A stretch of 49,339 nt of DNA from Patescibacteria group bacterium (GTDB taxonomy: Bacteria > Patescibacteriota > Minisyncoccia > UBA6257 > Colwellbacteraceae), in contig JAKJEF010000003.1 in assembly GCA_022705565.1 (NCBI GenBank), positions 1 to 49,339 of the forward strand. The letters run 5' to 3'. Position numbers and translations under genes: made by a program. Position 1 is the first letter of the stretch; each line of letters opens with the position of its first letter. The notes beneath the pieces were generated by a model. It worked only from the letters and a program-made list of their open reading frames with translations. It searched no databases and was not told the origin of the DNA. Shown here piece by piece: positions 3,375 to 46,100 of the stretch.

Positions 3375-4432
<1,058 letters not shown>

Positions 4433-4454
4433 ACCGGCCGTTTGTTGGCCGGCG

Positions 4455-4463
4455 TGCTATAAT
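4455..4463 (+). promoter_or_regulatory. Extended -10 promoter
   Basis: TGCTATAAT is an exact extended -10 box. The predicted start of transcription is near 4470, giving a leader of about 24 bases that begins with an AAAGGTCG element also found before three other genes in the window. Confidence 0.65.
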
Positions 4464-4493
4464 GCGGGAAAGGTCGTCAACGTCAATTTCGAC

Positions 4494-4610
4494 ATGTGCC
4501 AGACTTGCGGATGTTCTCCCTGCAAAAAGTGCGGCAGGGAAATAAAAAACGGCGTCTGCAGCGGTTGCGGCAAGAGATCTGACGAGTGCGAATGCAAGAG
4601 GGAAGGATAA
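4494..4610 (+). CDS. Tiny Cys-rich zinc-ribbon-like protein
   Basis: This 38-residue product contains nine cysteines: MCQTCGCSPCKKCG near the start, then CSGCG and CEC. The spacing suggests one or two small zinc-binding knuckles. I recall similar CxxCGCxPCKKCG peptides in CPR bacteria and archaea, with no known function. It has its own extended -10 promoter and is followed by a strong terminator, so it is a stand-alone transcription unit between trpS and tgt. Confidence 0.65.
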   Translation: MCQTCGCSPCKKCGREIKNGVCSGCGKRSDECECKREG

Positions 4611-4622
4611 GCGGGCGTTTCA

Positions 4623-4650
4623 ATCCCGCGGTCAAGCCGCGGGATTTTTG
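4623..4650 (+). terminator. Intrinsic terminator
   Basis: ATCCCGCGG and CCGCGGGAT form a 9-bp stem around TCAAG, followed by a T-rich tail. It ends the tiny Cys-rich gene just before tgt. Confidence 0.85.
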
Positions 4651-4671
4651 TTTCCCGAAGATTTTCGTGTT

Positions 4672-5823
4672 ATGACTTATGGCGAAATGATTGATTTCCG
4701 AGTTTTGAAAGAATCTCCGAAAAGCCGGGCCAGGCTCGGTATTTTGAAGACGCCGCACGGCGAAATCGAAACCCCGGCTTTGGTCGGAGTAGCCACCCAG
4801 GCGACGGTAAAAACCTTGACTTCCGAAGAAGCGCGAGAGGCGAAATTAAGGCTCCTGATTTGTAACACTTATCATCTTCATCTCCGGCCGGGAGAGAAAA
4901 TCGTCAAAGCTAACGGAGGACTTCATAAGTTCATGAATTGGCATTCGGGGCTGATGACCGACTCCGGCGGTTTCCAGGTATTCAGTCTGGGATTCGGCCG
5001 GGATTTCGGATTGAGCAAGGTCTCCAAATCCGGTTTAAAAGAAACGCTCGAAGAAGGCAGTCAACCGAAAAGCCTGAAAATCACCGACGACGGCGTGTTT
5101 TTCAAATCCCATCTCGACGGACGAGAAATGTTTTTGGGGCCGAAAGAATCGATCAAAATCCAAGAAGACCTGGGAGCCGACATTATTCTCGCTTTCGACG
5201 AATGCCCTCCACCCATCGCCAACCGCGAATACGTCTTAAAATCCCTGGAACGCACCCATCGCTGGGCCAAGGAGTGCCTGCGCGTCAAAAAATCCAAACA
5301 AGCCCTTTACGGGATCGTTCAGGGAAGTAGATTCAAAGATCTGCGGAAGGAATCGGCGCGATTCATCGATTCTTTAGGGTTCGACGGCTACGCCATTGGC
5401 GGAGAATTCGGAAGCGACAAATCGTCCATGGTGAAAATGCTCGAAACGGTGAACGCCGAACTCGATTCGTCGAAACCGAGACATCTTTTGGGAATCGGCT
5501 ATCTCGAAGACATTCCGAAAATCGTCAAATCCGGCGTGGATACTTTCGACTGCACCGCGCCGACGCATTACGGCCGTCGAGGCATCACCTTTGTCTCTTC
5601 GGGAAAACTGGATCTGAACAAGGCGATATTTCTGAAAGACCGAAAACCAATCGACCGAAATTGCGGCTGCCCGGTCTGCGGAAATTATTCCCGAAGTTAT
5701 CTCAGTCATTTGATCCGCGCCAAAGAAATTTCCGGCTTGAAGCTTCTTACCGTCCACAATCTTTTTTTCTTCAACACTTTGATCGAAAACATCAGGAAAG
5801 AAATCAAAAAAGGGAAGTTTTGA
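4672..5823 (+). CDS. tgt: tRNA-guanine transglycosylase
   Basis: The protein (about 383 residues from ATG 4672) exchanges guanine-34 for a 7-deazaguanine in tRNAs with GUN anticodons. Visible motifs are DSGGFQVFSLG, DECPPP, YGIVQGS, the nucleophile region VDTFDCTAPTHYGRRG and the zinc site CGCPVC with a downstream His in LTVHNL. The base-recognition loop reads IGGEFGSD where well-studied bacterial enzymes have IGGLAVGE, so substrate choice may differ. An ATG at 4687 (MIDFRV) is an equally possible start; the TTG further upstream lies in the terminator and is unlikely. queA follows 22 bases downstream in the same transcription unit. Confidence 0.92.
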   Translation: MTYGEMIDFRVLKESPKSRARLGILKTPHGEIETPALVGVATQATVKTLTSEEAREAKLRLLICNTYHLHLRPGEKIVKANGGLHKFMNWHSGLMTDSGGFQVFSLGFGRDFGLSKVSKSGLKETLEEGSQPKSLKITDDGVFFKSHLDGREMFLGPKESIKIQEDLGADIILAFDECPPPIANREYVLKSLERTHRWAKECLRVKKSKQALYGIVQGSRFKDLRKESARFIDSLGFDGYAIGGEFGSDKSSMVKMLETVNAELDSSKPRHLLGIGYLEDIPKIVKSGVDTFDCTAPTHYGRRGITFVSSGKLDLNKAIFLKDRKPIDRNCGCPVCGNYSRSYLSHLIRAKEISGLKLLTVHNLFFFNTLIENIRKEIKKGKF

Positions 5824-5845
5824 TTTCTCGGATTTGGAAAAAATA

Positions 5846-6880
5846 ATGCAATTCGAAAAACTTCTGGAATTATACGATTACCGCTTTCCCGAAAAAGCTA
5901 TTGCCCAATGTCCGGCGAGCCCCAGGGACAGCGCCAAGCTTTTGATCTACGACCGGAAAACAGAAAAAGTTTTTCTCGACGTTTTCCGGAATCTCGGCGA
6001 TCATCTTCCTCCGAAAGCGGTTTTGGTTCTCAACGAAACCAAGGTGATTCCGGCGCGGATCCGGGCCAAGAAATCGACCGGAGGGAAAGTGGAATTGCTT
6101 TATGTCGGAGAAGAAAAAGGAAATCTTCGATTCATGGTTAACCGCAAAATCCGTCCGGGAGAAAAAATATTCCTGGATAGCCGGAACTTTTTGACTCTTG
6201 TCGATCAAAAAGAGGGGATCGGTCTTTTCGAGCCGTCTTTTCCGGCGCGAAACATTTTCGGCGTTTTGGAGAAATTCGGAGAAACGCCGATTCCTCCGTA
6301 TATCAAACATTCGCCTTTGAAAGAGCCCGAACTCAAAGAAAAATACCAGGCGGTTTTCGCGAGAGTCCGGGGTTCGGTTGCCGCGCCCACCGCCTCGCTC
6401 CATTTTACGAAGAGGTTGATGGCAAAGCTTCAAAAATCCGGATTTGATCTGAAGTTCGTCATTCTCCACGTCAATCTGGGGACTTTCGCCAAGCTGACGC
6501 CGGAACAAATAAAGCGTTCCAAGCTCCACGAAGAATTCTATGAAATAGATCCGGGAATGGCGGCATTCCTGAATAAAGCCAAAAATCAAGGCCGGCCGAT
6601 CGTCGCCGTCGGCACGACCGTTGTCCGGACCCTCGAATCGGCGAGCGACGCCAAGGGAAATCTTACGAAACTGTCCGGGGAAACGAGTCTTTTCATCAAA
6701 GAAGGATATCGATTCAGATTCGTCGATAGCCTGATCACCAATTTTCACGTTCCGAAGTCGAGCCTTTTGATGCTTGTTTCCGCTTTCGCCGGCAGAAAGC
6801 AAATCCTCGATCTCTATCGGAAAGCGATCGCCAAAGACTTCAGGATATTTTCTTTCGGAGACGGGATGCTCTTGAAATAA
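5846..6880 (+). CDS. queA: S-adenosylmethionine:tRNA ribosyltransferase-isomerase
   Basis: QueA transfers and isomerises the ribosyl part of SAM onto preQ1-34 in tRNA, giving epoxyqueuosine. The 344-residue product from ATG 5846 shows YDYRFPEKAIAQ at the start, RDSAKLLIYD, VLNETKVIPARI, GSVAAPTASLHFT, VGTTVVRTLES, LITNFHVPKSSLLMLVSAFAG and the C-terminal FSFGDGMLL, all hallmarks of the family. The upstream TTG at 5834 is less likely. It lies directly behind tgt; together with queH the last three steps of queuosine formation are present. SAM for the reaction is made by MetK, also in this window. Confidence 0.95.
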   Translation: MQFEKLLELYDYRFPEKAIAQCPASPRDSAKLLIYDRKTEKVFLDVFRNLGDHLPPKAVLVLNETKVIPARIRAKKSTGGKVELLYVGEEKGNLRFMVNRKIRPGEKIFLDSRNFLTLVDQKEGIGLFEPSFPARNIFGVLEKFGETPIPPYIKHSPLKEPELKEKYQAVFARVRGSVAAPTASLHFTKRLMAKLQKSGFDLKFVILHVNLGTFAKLTPEQIKRSKLHEEFYEIDPGMAAFLNKAKNQGRPIVAVGTTVVRTLESASDAKGNLTKLSGETSLFIKEGYRFRFVDSLITNFHVPKSSLLMLVSAFAGRKQILDLYRKAIAKDFRIFSFGDGMLLK

Positions 6881-6942
6881 CTTGATTCCCGTTGATTTTG
6901 ATGATAATGATTCGTTAGTTCTTGATAAAGGAGGAGTAATAT

Positions 6943-7275
6943 TTGCGGTTATTCTTTGCCTTGATGCTCTTTACGGGAACGCTCGGGGGCGTCGCGGAAA
7001 AATGCGTGGAGCTCAAAAATAGAGAGTTCCTGAAAACAATCGCCGCGATGGCCATTGTTTTCCCGCTTGTGATTGCGCTAGTCAAGATTTTCCCGGAGGT
7101 GGCGGCCGATGCGGCCATACCCGATACTTGGCCGGGATTGATCGCCTCCCTTGCCGTCAATCTCTTGGGCAACTTTTGGGCAAGCCGTGTTTGTCCCGAA
7201 TGGCATTTTGCTCCAATTGGTTTGGTGAAGGAGTTGTCGAGACGCGTCAAATCGAGAATATCCCGCAAGCGTTGA
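6943..7275 (+). CDS. Small membrane protein, function unknown
   Basis: The 110-residue product has hydrophobic stretches at about residues 2-17, 30-47 and 60-80 and a basic C-terminal tail, so it is probably a membrane protein with two or three helices. I do not recognise it. The start is TTG, chosen because a strong Shine-Dalgarno sequence (AAAGGAGG, 6927-6934) lies 8 bases upstream and there is no better codon. A private terminator follows at once. The strong Shine-Dalgarno sequence, alternative start and own terminator set it apart from the neighbouring housekeeping genes. Confidence 0.7.
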   Translation: MRLFFALMLFTGTLGGVAEKCVELKNREFLKTIAAMAIVFPLVIALVKIFPEVAADAAIPDTWPGLIASLAVNLLGNFWASRVCPEWHFAPIGLVKELSRRVKSRISRKR

Positions 7276-9922: not shown

Positions 9923-10183
9923 ATGGCAGTTGTCAAAAAGAAAATCTGGCCGCGGTATTTCGAGTTGGTTAATTCCGGCAAGAAAAAATTCGAGCTCCGC
10001 TTGGCCGATTTCAAGATTAAAGAAGGCGACACCCTGGTGCTCGAAGAGTGGGATAACGAGAAAAAGAGATTGACCGGACGGAAAATCACCAGGAAGGTGA
10101 GTTATATCCTGAAGTTCGATTTGGACGATTTCGGGCAGAAAAAAGAGATTCTGAAAGACGGATTGTACGTGATCCAGTTTTGA
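9923..10183 (+). CDS. DUF3850/ASCH-type small protein
   Basis: This 86-residue protein contains IWPRYFELVNSGKKKFELR, ADFKIKEGDTLVLEEWD and GRKITRKVSYI, matching the DUF3850 branch of the ASCH/PUA-like fold, which is thought to bind RNA or modified nucleotides. No catalytic role is known to me. An AAAGGTCG element lies 24 bases upstream of the ATG, the same arrangement as before three other genes here. The metK 3' end carries a possible extended -10 about 100 bases upstream. Confidence 0.75.
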   Translation: MAVVKKKIWPRYFELVNSGKKKFELRLADFKIKEGDTLVLEEWDNEKKRLTGRKITRKVSYILKFDLDDFGQKKEILKDGLYVIQF

Positions 10184-10229: not shown

Positions 10230-10592
10230 ATGCAGAAAAATATCATTTGGATAATCGTCGTCATTGTCGCGGTTATCGGAATCTATTACGCTTACGGATT
10301 CATGAAAAAAGGATCGCCGACGGAAACGCCTTCGGGTTCCGGAAACGCTTCCGAGGTACTCATATCTAATTTCTCTTTCGCACCGAAAGAGCTTACGATC
10401 AAAAGAGGAACGACCGTCAAATGGACGAACCGAGACAATGTCGATCATCCGATCGTAAGCGACGCCGGCGTGTTCCAGAGCGGCGCCATCGTGCCGGGAG
10501 GAACATTCGAATTCGCCTTCGACTCGATCGGAGAGTTTTCTTATCATTGCTCCGCTCATCCGTGGATGACCGGGAAAATCATCGTCGAATAA
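10230..10592 (+). CDS. Membrane-anchored cupredoxin (blue copper protein)
   Basis: The 120-residue protein has an N-terminal membrane anchor (residues 5-23), a Ser/Gly/Pro linker and a plastocyanin-like domain. The type 1 copper ligands are visible: His73 in VDHPIV, Cys107 in YHC, His110 in CSAHP and Met113 in HPWM. FSFAPKELTIKRGTTVKW is the typical first half of the fold. It should sit on the outer face of the membrane and carry single electrons. A PQQ-dehydrogenase-like protein is encoded 18 bases downstream, so the two may be electron-transfer partners. Confidence 0.9.
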   Translation: MQKNIIWIIVVIVAVIGIYYAYGFMKKGSPTETPSGSGNASEVLISNFSFAPKELTIKRGTTVKWTNRDNVDHPIVSDAGVFQSGAIVPGGTFEFAFDSIGEFSYHCSAHPWMTGKIIVE

Positions 10593-10610
10593 TCAGCCTT
10601 TAAAAAAAAG

Positions 10611-11810
10611 ATGCAAAAAAACATCACCGCGGTCGCCATCATCGTTCTCGCGATCGTCCTGGTGCTCATGGTCGGCTCGTATTATCGGAGCAGGCTTAGC
10701 CTCGAGAATCCGTCAGGGAATGTTTCGGCGGCTCCGGAAGGAATTGATCTACCGGAGGGATTTACTATGTCGGTTTTCGCCGAGAATCTCACCGCTCCGC
10801 GAGTTCTCGCTTTCGACCCGAACGGCGTTCTTGTGGCGAGCATCACTTCGACCGGAGAAATAGTCGCTTTGCCCTCCGACAATCCGGACAATCCCGTGGC
10901 GGAAAAAACCGTTATCTTGGCTTCGGGCCTGAACAGGCCTCATGGTTTGGCGTTTTATTGTAAAGACTCCTGCAAGCTTTATGTGGCCGAGACAGACAAT
11001 GTTTCCGTTTTCGATTACGACGCGGACAATCTCAAGCTGTCCAACAAGAAAAAGATCATCGATCTGCCGGAAGGAGGCCAGCATTTCACGAGGACTTTGC
11101 TTATTCTAGCTTCGGACGACGGAGACAGGCTTCTTGTCGCTTTGGGGTCGGATTGCAACGTTTGCGTCGAATCCGACTGGCGCCGAGCGAGCATCCTGTC
11201 GGCCGACATGGACGGGAAAGATTTGAAGACTTTCGCTTCCGGGCTTCGCAATTCCGTTTTTATGGCCTTGGAGCCGCAAAGCGGCAAGGTTTTTGCTACC
11301 GAGAACGGACGCGATCTTTTGGGAGACGATATCCCGCCCGACGAGATCAACATCATCGAAGAAGGGAAGAATTACGGCTGGCCGATCTGCTACGGAAATA
11401 ATATCCATGATGGAGATTTCGACAAAAACGTCTATATCGCCGATCCTTGCCGCGACAAAACAGCGAGCCATATCGATATCCAGGCGCATTCCGCTCCTTT
11501 GGGACTCGCTTTTGTTCCGGACAATTGGCCGAGCGAGTATCGGAACGATTTATTCGTCTCTCTCCACGGATCGTGGAACAGATCGGTTCCGACCGGCTAC
11601 AAAGTCACGAGATTTTCTTTGGATGCCGGCGGCCTTTATTCGGGAAGCGGGCCGGAACAAGTCGATTTTATCACCGGCTGGCTCGATTCAGACGGAAAAA
11701 TTTCTGGAAGACCCACGGGAATCGCCTTCGATTCTTACGGCAATATGTTTGTCGCCGACGACCGGGCCGGAGCGATTTACAAGATCGTTCCTCCGGTTTT
11801 GGGTAGTTGA
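10611..11810 (+). CDS. PQQ-dependent sugar dehydrogenase-like protein, anchored
   Basis: The 399-residue protein has an N-terminal transmembrane segment (about residues 5-24) and a six-bladed beta-propeller of the soluble glucose/sorbosone dehydrogenase type. Family marks include LPEGFTMSVFAENLTAPR, GLNRPHGLAF, GGQHFTRTL (candidate catalytic His), SGLRNS, ATENGRD, NYGWPICYG, AHSAPLGLAF and SLHGSWNR. Cys pairs such as CKDSC and CNVC suggest disulfides outside the cell. The family oxidises sugars and needs PQQ; no PQQ synthesis genes are in the window, so the cofactor would have to be scavenged, or the protein may have another role. It forms a pair with the cupredoxin. Confidence 0.82.
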   Translation: MQKNITAVAIIVLAIVLVLMVGSYYRSRLSLENPSGNVSAAPEGIDLPEGFTMSVFAENLTAPRVLAFDPNGVLVASITSTGEIVALPSDNPDNPVAEKTVILASGLNRPHGLAFYCKDSCKLYVAETDNVSVFDYDADNLKLSNKKKIIDLPEGGQHFTRTLLILASDDGDRLLVALGSDCNVCVESDWRRASILSADMDGKDLKTFASGLRNSVFMALEPQSGKVFATENGRDLLGDDIPPDEINIIEEGKNYGWPICYGNNIHDGDFDKNVYIADPCRDKTASHIDIQAHSAPLGLAFVPDNWPSEYRNDLFVSLHGSWNRSVPTGYKVTRFSLDAGGLYSGSGPEQVDFITGWLDSDGKISGRPTGIAFDSYGNMFVADDRAGAIYKIVPPVLGS

Positions 11811-11876: not shown

Positions 11877-12068
11877 ATGAAAACTTTAAGTTGGATTGCC
11901 TGGATTCTGGTGGTCATTGGCGCTATCAACTGGGGATTGTATGGCCTCTTTGGGATGAATCTGGTAATGGCGATTTTCGGCTCCATGCCGATGGTGGAAA
12001 AGGTTGTCTATGTCTTGGTCGGAATCTCCGGTATCTGGATGATTTTCGACAAGATGCAAAAGTCGTAA
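11877..12068 (+). CDS. DUF378 family small membrane protein
   Basis: The 63-residue protein has two hydrophobic helices and the signature IAWILVVIGAINWGLYGLFG followed by YVLVGISGIWMIFD, which matches the DUF378 family. The function of that family is unknown. It has its own extended -10 promoter and a terminator just after the stop. The leader contains the AAAGGTCG element 23-24 bases before the ATG. Confidence 0.85.
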   Translation: MKTLSWIAWILVVIGAINWGLYGLFGMNLVMAIFGSMPMVEKVVYVLVGISGIWMIFDKMQKS

Positions 12069-41313: not shown

Positions 41314-43107
41314 TTATTTCTTGTCTTTGATCTCTTGTTTCAGGTCGGCGATAAACGAGTCGAGCGGTTTTTGGCCGAGATCCCCTTCGGAGCGTTTTCT
41401 CACCGAGACCGTATGCGTTTTGGTCTCCGCGTCTCCGACGATAAGAAGATAAGGGATTTTCTGCATTTCCGCGTTTCGAATGCGGCGTCCCAAAGTTTCG
41501 GCGGCCGAATGGAGTTCGACACGGATATCTTCGGATTCCAATTTTATTTTGACCTCTTCGGCGTAGCGATTGAACTTCTCGGAGACCGGAATGATCGCCA
41601 CCTGGACCGGAGAAAGCCATGTCGGGAAAGCGCCGGCGAAGTGCTCTATGAGAATACCCATAAATCTTTCGAGCGAGCCGTAGATTACCCGGTGGATGAC
41701 CGCCGGAGTCTTTTCTTTTCCGTCTTTATCGGTGTATTTGAGGTCGAATTTTCTGGGCAGTTGGAAATCCAGCTGGATTGTTCCGGTTTGCCATTGCCGT
41801 CCCAGAGAATCCTGCATCAAGATATCGAGCTTCGGACCGTAGAAAGCGCCTTCGCCCTGACCGATGAAATAATCGAACTTGTTTTTCTTCAAGATGGCCT
41901 CCAATTCTTTTTCGGCGCGCGCCCAAGTTTTGTCGTCGCCCATATAATCGTCCGGTTTTGTTCCGAGTCTGATCTTGAATTTGATGTCGAAGATCGAATA
42001 GAAAAGATTGGCGATTTCCAGGATTCTCTTGAATTCGTCGCTGATTTGCTCTTCGGTGACAAAGATATGGGCGTCGTCTTGGGCGAATTTTTGGACGCGA
42101 AAAAGGCCGTTCAGTTCTCCGGACTTCTCGTGGCGGTGAAGGGTGTCGCAATCGGAAAGACGCAACGGCAATTCCCGATAGCTATGAGTCTCCTGCTTGA
42201 AAATAGTCATCGCGTTCGGGCAATTCATCGGTTTCAGACAGTAAACGCCGTCCTCGCCCATGTCGCTTATGAACATATTTTCCCGATAATGGTCCCAATG
42301 CCCCGAAGTCTCGTACAGCTGCTTTTTATTGAGCAAAGGAGTGATGGTTTCGAGATAGCCTCTTTTTTTGTGCTCCTCGCGCCAGAACTTCAGGAGCTCG
42401 TTCACCATGATCGTTCCTTTGGGAAGCCAGTAAGGCATCCCCGGAGCCGTCTCGTCAATGAAGAATATTCCGAGTTCTTTGCCGAGCTTTTTGTGATCGC
42501 GTTTTTCCGCCTCTTCCAGCAGCCGGAGATAATCATCGAGCTCTTTCTTGTTTGAGAAGGCCAATCCATAGATGCGTTGGAGCATGGGATTTTTTTCGTT
42601 TCCTCTCCAGTAAGCTCCGGCGATCGAAGTGAGCTTGAAAGCTTCGGGATCGATCTCCGCAGTCGATTTGACGTGAGGTCCGGCGCAAAGATCGATAAAA
42701 AGAGGATTTTTCAAACTCTTGTCGTAGGTTTTGTAGACGCTCAAGGGTTTTTTCGCTTTCCGGAGTTCATCCACCAGTTCCAGCTTGAACGGCTGGTCTT
42801 TGAAGATTTTTCTCGCTTCGGTCGGAGTAACGATCTCTTTTTTGAATTTCAGTCCCTGTTTCAGAAGCTCTCTTACGCGGCCTTCGATGGCTTTCAAGTT
42901 GTCTTCGGAAATCTCCTTGATTCCGAAGTCGTAATAAAAGCCGTTTTCGATCGTGGGACCGATGCCGAGTTTGGCCTTGGGAAATCTTTCGAGGGTCGCC
43001 AAGGCGACGATGTGGGAAATCGAGTGTCTGATCGCCTCGAGATCCGGTTTTCCGGCGGCTTTTTTCGAGCCGGCCGGTTTCTTTATATTATTTTTGCTGA
43101 TTCGCAT
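41314..43107 (-). CDS. thrS: Threonyl-tRNA synthetase without TGS domain
   Basis: From ATG 43107 the protein has 597 residues. It begins with a Lys-rich tail and then the N2 editing domain (AIRHSISHIVALATLERFPK, GIGPTIENGFYYDF), so the N-terminal TGS domain is absent. The catalytic core is present (MNCPNAMTIFKQETHSYREL, FRVQKFAQDDAHIF, HRVIYGSLERFMGILIEH) and the anticodon-binding domain ends the protein (VSEKFNRYAEEV, VSVRKRSEGDLG). I choose 43107 because it overlaps the upstream dnaE by only 25 bases; the open frame itself extends to 43176. Confidence 0.94.
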   Translation of the reverse strand: MRISKNNIKKPAGSKKAAGKPDLEAIRHSISHIVALATLERFPKAKLGIGPTIENGFYYDFGIKEISEDNLKAIEGRVRELLKQGLKFKKEIVTPTEARKIFKDQPFKLELVDELRKAKKPLSVYKTYDKSLKNPLFIDLCAGPHVKSTAEIDPEAFKLTSIAGAYWRGNEKNPMLQRIYGLAFSNKKELDDYLRLLEEAEKRDHKKLGKELGIFFIDETAPGMPYWLPKGTIMVNELLKFWREEHKKRGYLETITPLLNKKQLYETSGHWDHYRENMFISDMGEDGVYCLKPMNCPNAMTIFKQETHSYRELPLRLSDCDTLHRHEKSGELNGLFRVQKFAQDDAHIFVTEEQISDEFKRILEIANLFYSIFDIKFKIRLGTKPDDYMGDDKTWARAEKELEAILKKNKFDYFIGQGEGAFYGPKLDILMQDSLGRQWQTGTIQLDFQLPRKFDLKYTDKDGKEKTPAVIHRVIYGSLERFMGILIEHFAGAFPTWLSPVQVAIIPVSEKFNRYAEEVKIKLESEDIRVELHSAAETLGRRIRNAEMQKIPYLLIVGDAETKTHTVSVRKRSEGDLGQKPLDSFIADLKQEIKDKK

Positions 43108-46100
43108 ATTATTTTTGGTTCTCCGTTTTTTCTGGATACTCGTCCTTTTACTTGCAGTATCGTGTTTTCTCTCCAAATGTCGGGATGCTTTTGGATGGTG
43201 TCGTTGAAGACCAATATTTCCACATTATTACTCAAATCTTCCAGTTTTACAAACAGCATCGGCTGTCCGTTTTTGGTGTTGATTTTTTGGATTTTGGAAA
43301 CAAGACCCGTCACCGTCACATTGTATCCGTCGCGGATGTTTTTGACATCCTTTAAGGGAGTGACGCCGTCGTTGTTGTGCTTGAATCCGTTCAAGGGGTG
43401 GTCCGAAACGAACAATCCCAAAAGCTCTTTTTCCCAATTAAGTTTTTCCATATTCGTCGCCGGGGCGACCGGCGTCAGCTTGATCGTCATCTTCGGCGCT
43501 CCTCCGAAAAGACTGGTCTGGCTCACGGCCAAACTCCGACGATATGCGCTCAAGGTTCTAATGATGTCGTCGAGGTTCATTAAAAGTGTTTTTCTCTCGA
43601 CGCTCAAAGAATCCATGGCGCCGCATTTGATGAGACTTTCCAAAGATTTCTTGTTCAGATCTTTGTGGTTGATCCTCGAAACAAAATCTTCAAGGTTGGA
43701 AAAAGGTCCGCCGCGGAGCCGTTCGTCGACAATGGCCTGGGTGATGCCGACACCGACGTTTTTGACGGCCGACAATCCGAAACGGATATTCTGGTTCTCC
43801 GGAGCGAAATCCGAATAGCTCTTGTTCACATCCGGCGGCAGAACCTGGATTTTCATGCGGCGGCAATCGGCGACGAGAACGGCGATACGCTCCACGTCCG
43901 AAGAATCGTTATTTAAAAGGCTCGTCATGAATTCCTGCGGATAATGGGCTTTCAAGTAAGCGGTTTCGTATCCGATCAGGGCATAGCAGACCGAATGGGC
44001 TTTGTTGAATCCGTACCTGGCGAAAGGCTCGGCCAGTTTCCAGAGGTCTTCTCCGAGCTTTTTGTCTCCCAGGGTTTTCTCCACGCCGGAAACGAATTTG
44101 CCGGCCTGCTCGTCGAGCAAGGATTTGATCTTTTTGCCGACGGCTTTTCTCAAAACATCGGCTTCGCCGTAGGTGAATCCCGCCATTTCGCGGGCGATCA
44201 TGAGGAGTTGCTCCTGGTAGATCATGATACCGTAGGTACCGCTCAAAATCGGCTCGAGCTTCGGATGGAGATAGGTTATCGGTTCGCGACCCTGCTTTCT
44301 CGCGATATACGAAGGAATAAGCTCCATCGGTCCCGGACGGAACAGCGCGACCATGGCCACCAGGTCTTCGAAACGGTCGGCTTTCATGGCCATGAGCCAG
44401 CGCGTCATTCCCGCGCCTTCAAATTGGAAAACGCCGATGTTTTCGCCGCGCTGGAGCAGGTTGAAAGTGTCTTGGTCGTTCAGAGGGAGCTTATTGATGT
44501 CGATCGAATCTCCTTTTTCTTTGACAAGCCTGAGGCAGCCCTCGATGATGGTCAGGTTTCGGAGCCCCAAAAAGTCCATTTTAAGGAGGCCCAGGTCTTC
44601 GATGGCGTGCATCTCGAACTGGGTGATATAGGCGGTTTCGTCCTGCGGCGATCGCTGGAGAGGCGCGTATTCGGTGATCGGCTTATCGGTGATGACGACT
44701 CCGGCGGCGTGGACCGAGGCGTGCCTGGCCACGCCCTCGAGCTTCGAAGCGGCGTCGATTATTTTTTTGGCGTCCGGATCGGCTTCGTATTCTTTCCGGA
44801 ATTCGGCGTTCGATTCAAGCAGATCTTCGAGCTGGTGGCTCGACCTCGACTGGTTCGGTTCGAAAGGAATCAGTTTGGCGATATGGTCGACGAAAGAATA
44901 AGGATAGCCAAGCGCCCGGCCCGAATCCCTGATGGCGGCCCGGGCCGCCAAAGTCCCGAAAGTGATTATCTGGGCCACGTGATCGTCCCCGTATTTTTCT
45001 TTAACATAGCCGATGACTTCTTCCCTTCTCGTATCGGCGAAATCCATGTCGATATCCGGCATTTGGATCCTCGCCGGATTAAGGAATCTCTCGAAAAGCA
45101 ATCCGTAAGGCAAGGGATTGACGTCGGTGATCCCAAGGATATAAACGATAATGCTCGAAGCGGCCGAACCTCTGCCCGGACCAACGACAATGCCGTGGCT
45201 TTTGGCCCAGCGCACAAAGTCCTGGACAATCAGCAAGTAGCTTGCGAAGCCGGTTTGTTCGATGACCGAGAATTCGTAATCAAGCCTTTCTTTTATTTCC
45301 GGCGTGATCTCCGCAAACCGTTCGCCGATTCTCTCGTCGATCAGCTTTTTCAAATAAGAAAGACTGGTTTCTCCTTCGGGAATGGGATAAGCCGGCAGCT
45401 TATTTTTTCCAAGCTCGAATTCAAAAACGCATTTTTCGGCGATTTTAACGGTATTTTCCAGGGCTTCGGGAATGTCCGCGAAAAGTTCGGCCATTTTGTC
45501 CGGCGAGGTTAAAGAAAGATCGAATTCCTTCATCGTCAATCTTTTTTCGTCGTCGAAATGGTTCTGGGTTTGGATGGCGAGAAGCACTTCGTGGGTGGCC
45601 TTGTCTTCGGGCCGGAGATAGTGGGAATCCTGGGTGGCGACCAGGGGAATTTGAAGTTCGTTCGCCAGTTTGATGAGTTTCGGCCGAATCTCGCCCGAAT
45701 GCTGCTGGACTTCGATGTAAAAATCTTCGGCGAAAAGGTTCTTGTAGAACATGGCCACGGTTTTGGCCTCTTCGGTTCGACCGAGCTCGAGTAGCCTCGG
45801 GATTTCTCCGTTGAAGCATCCGGAAAGGCAAACCAGCCCTTCATGGTGTTTCTCGATCAATTCGTGGTCGATGCGCGGTTTGTAATAAAACCCTTCGATG
45901 TTCGCCGCCGTGACCAGCTTCACGAGGTTTTTGTATCCGATTTCGTTCTTGACGAGCAGGGTGAGGTGATAGCGGATATTGTCCACTTTGGGGTTTTTGG
46001 AGAATCTCGATCCGAAGGCGACGTAGAGCTCCGAGCCGATAATCGGCTTTACGCCTGCGGCTTTGGCTTTTTTGTAGAACTCCACGGCTCCGTACATGTT

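Follow-up and report, generated by a model that had tools for sequence, protein, structure and literature searches.

A predicted AA12-type PQQ sugar dehydrogenase beside a membrane-anchored cupredoxin in a patescibacterium, likely at the cell surface and outside a respiratory chain

The locus studied here raises the question of why a bacterium of the CPR should carry, side by side, the genes for a blue copper protein and for a propeller protein resembling PQQ dehydrogenases. It lies in a window of 49,339 nucleotides (contig JAKJEF010000003.1 of assembly GCA_022705565.1, Patescibacteria, Colwellbacteraceae). A preliminary description made from the sequence had proposed that the two proteins form a surface sugar-oxidising electron chain using scavenged PQQ, and had regarded such respiratory-type parts as unexpected in a CPR cell. 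The results described below make it likely that the propeller oxidizes sugars at the cell surface and has a copper protein as its electron acceptor, and that it is not a part of a respiratory chain.

The description of the gene arrangement was accurate, in that both open reading frames were found exactly at the positions given below, both on the plus strand and separated by 18 bases from stop to start. Each of the two proteins has one N-terminal hydrophobic stretch, in agreement with the proposed anchors, and in the structural model of the propeller this stretch forms a helix. The features of the upstream gene are as follows.

10230 to 10592, plus strand: membrane-anchored cupredoxin of the plastocyanin/amicyanin type, 120 aa (PF00127; PDB matches)
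10446 to 10568, plus strand: type 1 copper ligands His73 (10446-10448), Cys107 (10548-10550), His110 (10557-10559) and Met113 (10566-10568), from the amicyanin alignment

The upstream reading frame matched the Pfam families Copper-bind (PF00127, E 9.8e-10) and Cupredoxin_1 (PF13473, E 2.2e-8), both above the curated cut-offs, and among its PDB matches are amicyanin (E ~1e-11) and, at E 4.9e-18, a Cu nitrite reductase with a cupredoxin domain (9cck). No part of the copper site is missing, as had been stated: the His, Cys, His and Met that characterize a type 1 cupredoxin are all present inside the Copper-bind domain and align with those of amicyanin and of the NirK-fused cupredoxin, and we take these four positions to be the copper ligands. 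The protein thus shares all four ligands and the Cys loop with amicyanin and plastocyanin, but differs from them in having its own membrane anchor and in scoring below both equivalog cut-offs, i.e., that of amicyanin (TIGR02657, 46.3 bits versus a cut-off of 110.2) and the NCBIfam cut-off for plastocyanin. The gene is under purifying selection (dN/dS 0.16 versus the congener G002), and the same is true for the downstream gene (dN/dS 0.09), the features of which are listed here together with the conservation of its residues in an alignment of 69 sequences.

10611 to 11810, plus strand: six-bladed propeller of 399 aa with a membrane anchor, predicted PQQ-dependent sugar dehydrogenase of the AA12 type (PF07995, PF22807; model; structural matches 6jt5 and 6i1t)
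10623 to 10697, plus strand: N-terminal membrane anchor helix, residues 5-29 (DSSP of the model)
10800 to 10802, plus strand: Arg64, equivalent to CcPDH Arg273 and TrAA12 Arg57, PQQ carboxylate (residue mapping; 69/69)
11082 to 11084, plus strand: His158, equivalent to CcPDH His363, TrAA12 His153 and sGDH His144, catalytic base (residue mapping; 69/69)
11154 to 11165, plus strand: CxxC motif, Cys182 and Cys185 (68/69 and 67/69), not in the fungal structures (alignment to the fungal enzymes)
11247 to 11252, plus strand: Arg213-Asn214, equivalent to CcPDH Arg430-Asn431, PQQ quinone oxygens (residue mapping; both 69/69)
11307 to 11315, plus strand: Gly233 to Asp235, equivalent to TrAA12 Ser240 and Asp242, catalytic Ca2+ site (residue mapping; 67/69 and 68/69)
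11487 to 11489, plus strand: His293, equivalent to CcPDH His539, PQQ C-7 carboxylate (residue mapping; 67/69)
11565 to 11579, plus strand: HGSWN loop with His319, Trp322 and Asn323, equivalent to CcPDH His560, Trp563 and Asn564 (69/69, 66/69, 69/69)
11709 to 11711, plus strand: Arg367, equivalent to CcPDH Arg621, PQQ C-9 carboxylate (residue mapping; 69/69)

The propeller matched the Pfam families GSDH (PF07995, E 3.3e-13) and TrAA12 (PF22807, E 4.6e-9; 35.6 bits versus a cut-off of 30.9), both above the curated cut-offs, and fungal AA12 enzymes were at the top of a phmmer search against PDB sequences. An AlphaFold2 model was built from the 69 sequences, i.e., the window protein and 68 of 80 AA12 loci from other genomes (11 loci with overlong open frames and L112 were left out), and it had a pLDDT of 91.0 and a pTM of 0.87. 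AA12 chains ranked first for this model with both Foldseek and VIA-align 2. With the latter, CcPDH of Coprinopsis cinerea (6jt5) reached a Z of 42.5 over 344 residues at an rmsd of 2.3, and the TrAA12 chains of Trichoderma reesei reached 41.6-41.8 (6i1t, 41.8), followed by the PQQ enzymes of the sGDH/Asd type at 33-37 and, after a gap, by HHIP at 25.9.

According to the available part of PMC6881789, PQQ is held in CcPDH by Arg273, His363, Arg430, Asn431, His539, His560, Trp563, Asn564 and Arg621. All nine are identical in the window propeller, so that the absence of PQQ-contacting residues, which would have spoken against the proposal, was not observed, and seven of the nine are invariant among the 69 sequences, including His319, the counterpart of the AA12-specific His560. 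The Ca2+ ligands of TrAA12, the side chain of Asp242 and the backbone carbonyl of Ser240 (PMC6881810, in the part available), map to Asp235 and to the backbone carbonyl of Gly233. Because AA12 structures are the best matches of the predicted structure and all nine PQQ residues of CcPDH are present, the propeller is assigned, on the basis of model and alignment, to the CAZy family AA12 as a prokaryotic member.

The window protein shares with the two fungal enzymes (6jt5 and 6jwf; 6h7t and 6i1t) the six-bladed propeller, the PQQ and Ca2+ residues and the catalytic histidine. In contrast to them, it has only about 24% sequence identity, is anchored by its own helix, is devoid of the AA8 cytochrome b domain, has a Gly in place of the Ser that binds Ca2+ via its backbone carbonyl, and contains the nearly invariant CxxC motif, which is situated in a loop at the end of the strand next to the catalytic histidine on its C-terminal side. 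The fold, the histidine base and the Arg-Asn pair at the quinone oxygens are also common to sGDH/Asd, the structural rank of which is lower, and the PQQ carboxylates are bound by the HGSWN loop in AA12 versus Lys377 in sGDH (PMC6881789, as far as available).

An alternative would be that the propeller is non-catalytic and that the fold has been kept for the binding of carbohydrates or of a host surface. To our knowledge, propellers of the HHIP type bind ligands and have no known use for PQQ, and a second propeller encoded in the same genome resembles HHIP (E 1e-46 for its best PDB match) and seems to be devoid of residues for the binding of the PQQ carboxylates, as no basic residues were found at the C-terminal carboxylate positions when it was aligned with one comparator of the Asd type. 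That neither a PqqE-level gene nor an electron sink was found in the genome would also fit a non-catalytic role. An HHIP-type identity of the window propeller itself was ruled out by the structural rank (25.9 versus about 42 for AA12), and the conservation of the nine PQQ contacts together with the Ca2+-binding Asp makes loss of catalysis quite unlikely.

If the propeller is a PQQ enzyme, the source of the cofactor and the destination of the electrons have to be considered. The assembly comprises 555,587 bases and is 98% complete. Its best match to the PqqE profile TIGR02109 reached 62 bits versus a cut-off of 381, which represents only sub-threshold radical-SAM proteins, in a search in which no control genome exceeded the cut-off either, and which was thus without a positive control. 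PQQ would therefore have to be scavenged, as had been suggested. It should be noted that the sub-threshold matches include tandem radical-SAM genes (contig C47, 2834-11265), and that similar runs exist in other genomes (G001:C5, G002:C9 and G005:C3).

No match was found in the genome for COX1-type haem-copper oxidases (PF00115), bd oxidase (PF01654), the multicopper oxidase/NirK family Cu-oxidase_3 (PF07732), Cytochrome_CBB3 (PF13442, the cytochrome c family searched for) or UbiA (PF01040, quinone), and a respiratory chain was therefore rejected for these five families. The absence of an electron acceptor had been named beforehand as an outcome that would speak against the proposal, and for these families it is the outcome obtained. 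The first three were also without a match in both congeners, G001 and G002. The bacterium probably cannot respire, and the electrons would have to exit via an unrecognized or external acceptor because all five acceptor and quinone families were without a match. The proposal of an electron chain is thus upheld in part: a dehydrogenase with all named PQQ residues is encoded and an electron transfer to the cupredoxin is plausible, but the respiratory character of the chain is not borne out. A coupling of AA12 with LPMO, as for CcPDH in fungi, was also rejected, as PF03067 had no match in any of 101 genomes, including this one.

It could still be argued that a true respiratory chain receives the electrons of the pair, and that the oxidase of this chain is too divergent for the searches or is encoded in the 2% of the genome that the assembly lacks. 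COX1-family genes were found in 2 of the 101 genomes and PF07732 in 10, and the accessible text of earlier reports describes CPR bacteria with NirK and a cupredoxin (PMC5581439, PMC12931201) or with cytochrome bo3 (PMC8407418). Nevertheless, the lack of matches to all five families in the genome, and to the three that were searched for in its congeners, renders this explanation highly unlikely.

The next question is whether the cupredoxin is the partner of the dehydrogenase. The genome contains only one further PF00127 gene, and each of the two cupredoxin genes is located directly upstream of one of the two PF07995 propeller genes, the second pair being on one strand of contig C22 (L001:1285-2894). 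Assuming roughly 600 genes, both pairings would be expected by random placement in about one of a million genomes, as an estimate, and the existence of the second pair therefore indicates that the pairing in the window is beyond chance. The chemistry of the first pair is probably not shared by the second, because the propeller of the latter is the HHIP-like protein that seems to be devoid of basic C-terminal PQQ residues. In the congener G002 the window pair is kept, and the HHIP-like propeller has no cupredoxin beside it. The genes that flank the window pair are as follows.

9923 to 10183, plus strand: DUF3850/ASCH-domain gene, upstream syntenic flank, outside the redox pair (Pfam; same neighbour in congener G001)
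11877 to 12068, plus strand: gene for a small membrane protein with DUF378, syntenic flank on the downstream side, outside the redox pair (Pfam; same neighbour in congener G001)

The gene order DUF3850, cupredoxin, X, DUF378 is common to the three genomes, and X is AA12 in the window genome and in G002, and a PF03358 FMN reductase without an evident anchor in G001 (L035:906-1881, contig C8). In G001 the AA12 gene has thus been replaced or has not yet arrived. Because an anchorless flavin reductase can occupy this slot, adjacency to the cupredoxin need not mean partnership. The pairing of cupredoxin and AA12 is real, but local to the genus.

A genome-collection scan with a profile of eight sequences led to 206 relatives, of which 80 were kept as AA12 loci. 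Judged from the record titles, 57 of the 80 belong to CPR lineages, 18 to other bacteria or archaea, and 5 are named 'bacterium' only, a census that is biased towards CPR because the profile had been built from CPR sequences. A cupredoxin is present within the fetched flank of 4 of the 80 loci, including the congener, and of 3 of the 79 outside the genus (L069, L088 and L096), where it never directly adjoins AA12. A general cupredoxin-AA12 operon was therefore rejected. No recurrent electron carrier was found in the 25 families shown for the 142 nearest neighbours of AA12, a set picked from 155 that leaves out some long or dubious reading frames and the neighbours of the congener.

Several of these neighbourhoods have features of their own. 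In L088 (Nomurabacteria, 4000-7089), a reading of the open frames gives a cupredoxin, a small membrane protein, a thioredoxin-like protein (CPHC), a DsbB-like membrane protein and then AA12, all on one strand. DsbA-like genes are found near AA12 in 6 of the 80 loci, four Wolfebacteria loci (L057, L062, L070 and L117, at about 5140-5810) have an Fe/Mn superoxide dismutase gene as the immediate upstream neighbour of AA12, and two loci titled Azambacteria (L069:3830-5224 and L096:3140-4579) encode, near AA12, proteins that combine Kazal domains with a C-terminal cupredoxin domain, together with DUF5667 in L069.

Throughout the order, PF07995 matches were found in 36 of 244 genomes and PF00127 matches in 70, so that both genes are within what can be expected in CPR. 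The view that such parts are unexpected was thus overstated, all the more so as most of the AA12 loci carry CPR names and as cupredoxins, NirK and cytochrome bo3 in CPR had already been published, in the reports cited above as far as available. The parts are known and ordinary, and the unusual point is the pairing of AA12 with a cupredoxin in a cell without a detected electron sink. No report of AA12, PQQ dehydrogenase or sorbosone dehydrogenase in CPR was found in the open-licence PMC literature.

These distributions bear on the most serious alternative, namely that AA12 is a working PQQ dehydrogenase and the cupredoxin has another role at the surface, e.g., in copper handling or with a different redox partner, the two genes merely sharing a locus. 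This would explain the FMN reductase behind the same cupredoxin in G001, the rarity of cupredoxins in the flanks of AA12 genes outside the genus, and the finding that 51 of the 70 PF00127-positive genomes have no PF07995 match. It would not explain why both cupredoxin genes of this genome directly precede propeller genes of the GSDH family, or why the two families co-occur in the order more often than expected by chance: a cupredoxin is present in 12 of 20 genomes with AA12-type propellers, a class that was assigned partly by PF07995 score alone and only some members of which were aligned, and in 58 of the 224 other genomes (p 0.003 in Fisher's test), and counted by genus the values are 10 of 16 as compared with 51 of 157 (p 0.026). 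A cupredoxin unconnected with the dehydrogenase is a real possibility, though on balance it is not what we would expect.

As to the origin of the AA12 gene, the copies of the window and of G002 group with four copies from Actinomycetota in a quick tree of 69 rows (SH-aLRT 97) and in a careful tree of 31 rows selected from these (support 92/94, not starred). A clade with the Colwellbacteria copy of the same family was weakly rejected (p-AU 0.04) and a clade with the Colwellbacteria and Harrisonbacteria copies was rejected (p-AU 0.005), both clades having been named after the tree had been seen. Leaving aside the direction of transfer between the phyla, the AA12 gene was probably acquired by lateral transfer at a place where the genus already had its cupredoxin gene, which is the simplest account of the grouping with Actinomycetota and of the syntenic swap.

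The following mechanism is proposed, in which the pair would be a small extracytoplasmic redox module. A single helix would attach the AA12-type quinoprotein to the outside of the membrane, and its propeller would bind Ca2+ and PQQ scavenged from neighbouring cells. With His158 as the base, a hydride would be taken from a sugar or a similar polyol, yielding a lactone or an acid, and the reduced PQQ would be reoxidized in single-electron steps by the anchored cupredoxin next to it, which would thus take the role that cytochrome b (AA8) has in fungi. From the cupredoxin the electrons would go to an acceptor that the genome does not reveal, most likely an extracellular one such as a partner cell, a metal or O2, and the module would stand outside any recognizable respiratory chain. 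For this reading as a whole, including the lateral arrival of the AA12 gene next to the resident cupredoxin gene, the chances appear to be a little short of even. In a bolder version, a reduced CPR cell that has no haem oxidase and neither quinone nor cytochrome c would oxidize sugars by way of an all-copper extracellular line, leading from AA12 with community PQQ via the cupredoxin to a mineral or a partner cell. The CxxC motif would then be an electron relay beside PQQ, and the cupredoxin locus a plug-in slot in which AA12, an HHIP-like propeller and a flavin reductase have been exchanged; taken together, this is improbable.

An extracytoplasmic cupredoxin as electron carrier in a CPR cell has been proposed before, in the available text of the two reports on cupredoxin and NirK (PMC5581439, PMC12931201), in which the cupredoxin feeds NirK, whereas PF07732 is missing here and the neighbour is predicted to be an electron donor enzyme. 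The portions at hand of other reports describe CPR bacteria with cytochrome bo3 (PMC8407418) and with NO reductase (PMC5220378). For marine heterotrophic Thaumarchaeota, either quinone or a blue copper protein has been proposed as the electron acceptor of PQQ dehydrogenases (PMC7300363, as far as available), similar to the proposed module, but these archaea possess a PQQ synthase and a haem-copper oxidase in addition to complex I, in contrast to the present genome with neither an oxidase nor a PqqE-level match.

If the proposed mechanism is correct, some CPR bacteria oxidize sugars at their surface and export the electrons without a conventional respiratory chain. The supply of both the cofactor and the electron sink by others would then be a concrete metabolic tie of an episymbiont to its partners. 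In addition, a copper-protein version would be added to AA12, a family of which the structurally characterized members are fungal.

Two further observations concern other parts of the window. The genes tgt and queA for queuosine modification of tRNA adjoin each other at 4648-6880 in this reduced genome. At 41335-45512, three large reading frames on the plus strand (406, 413 and 522 aa) have no Pfam match, and an open frame of 1059 aa runs antisense to them.
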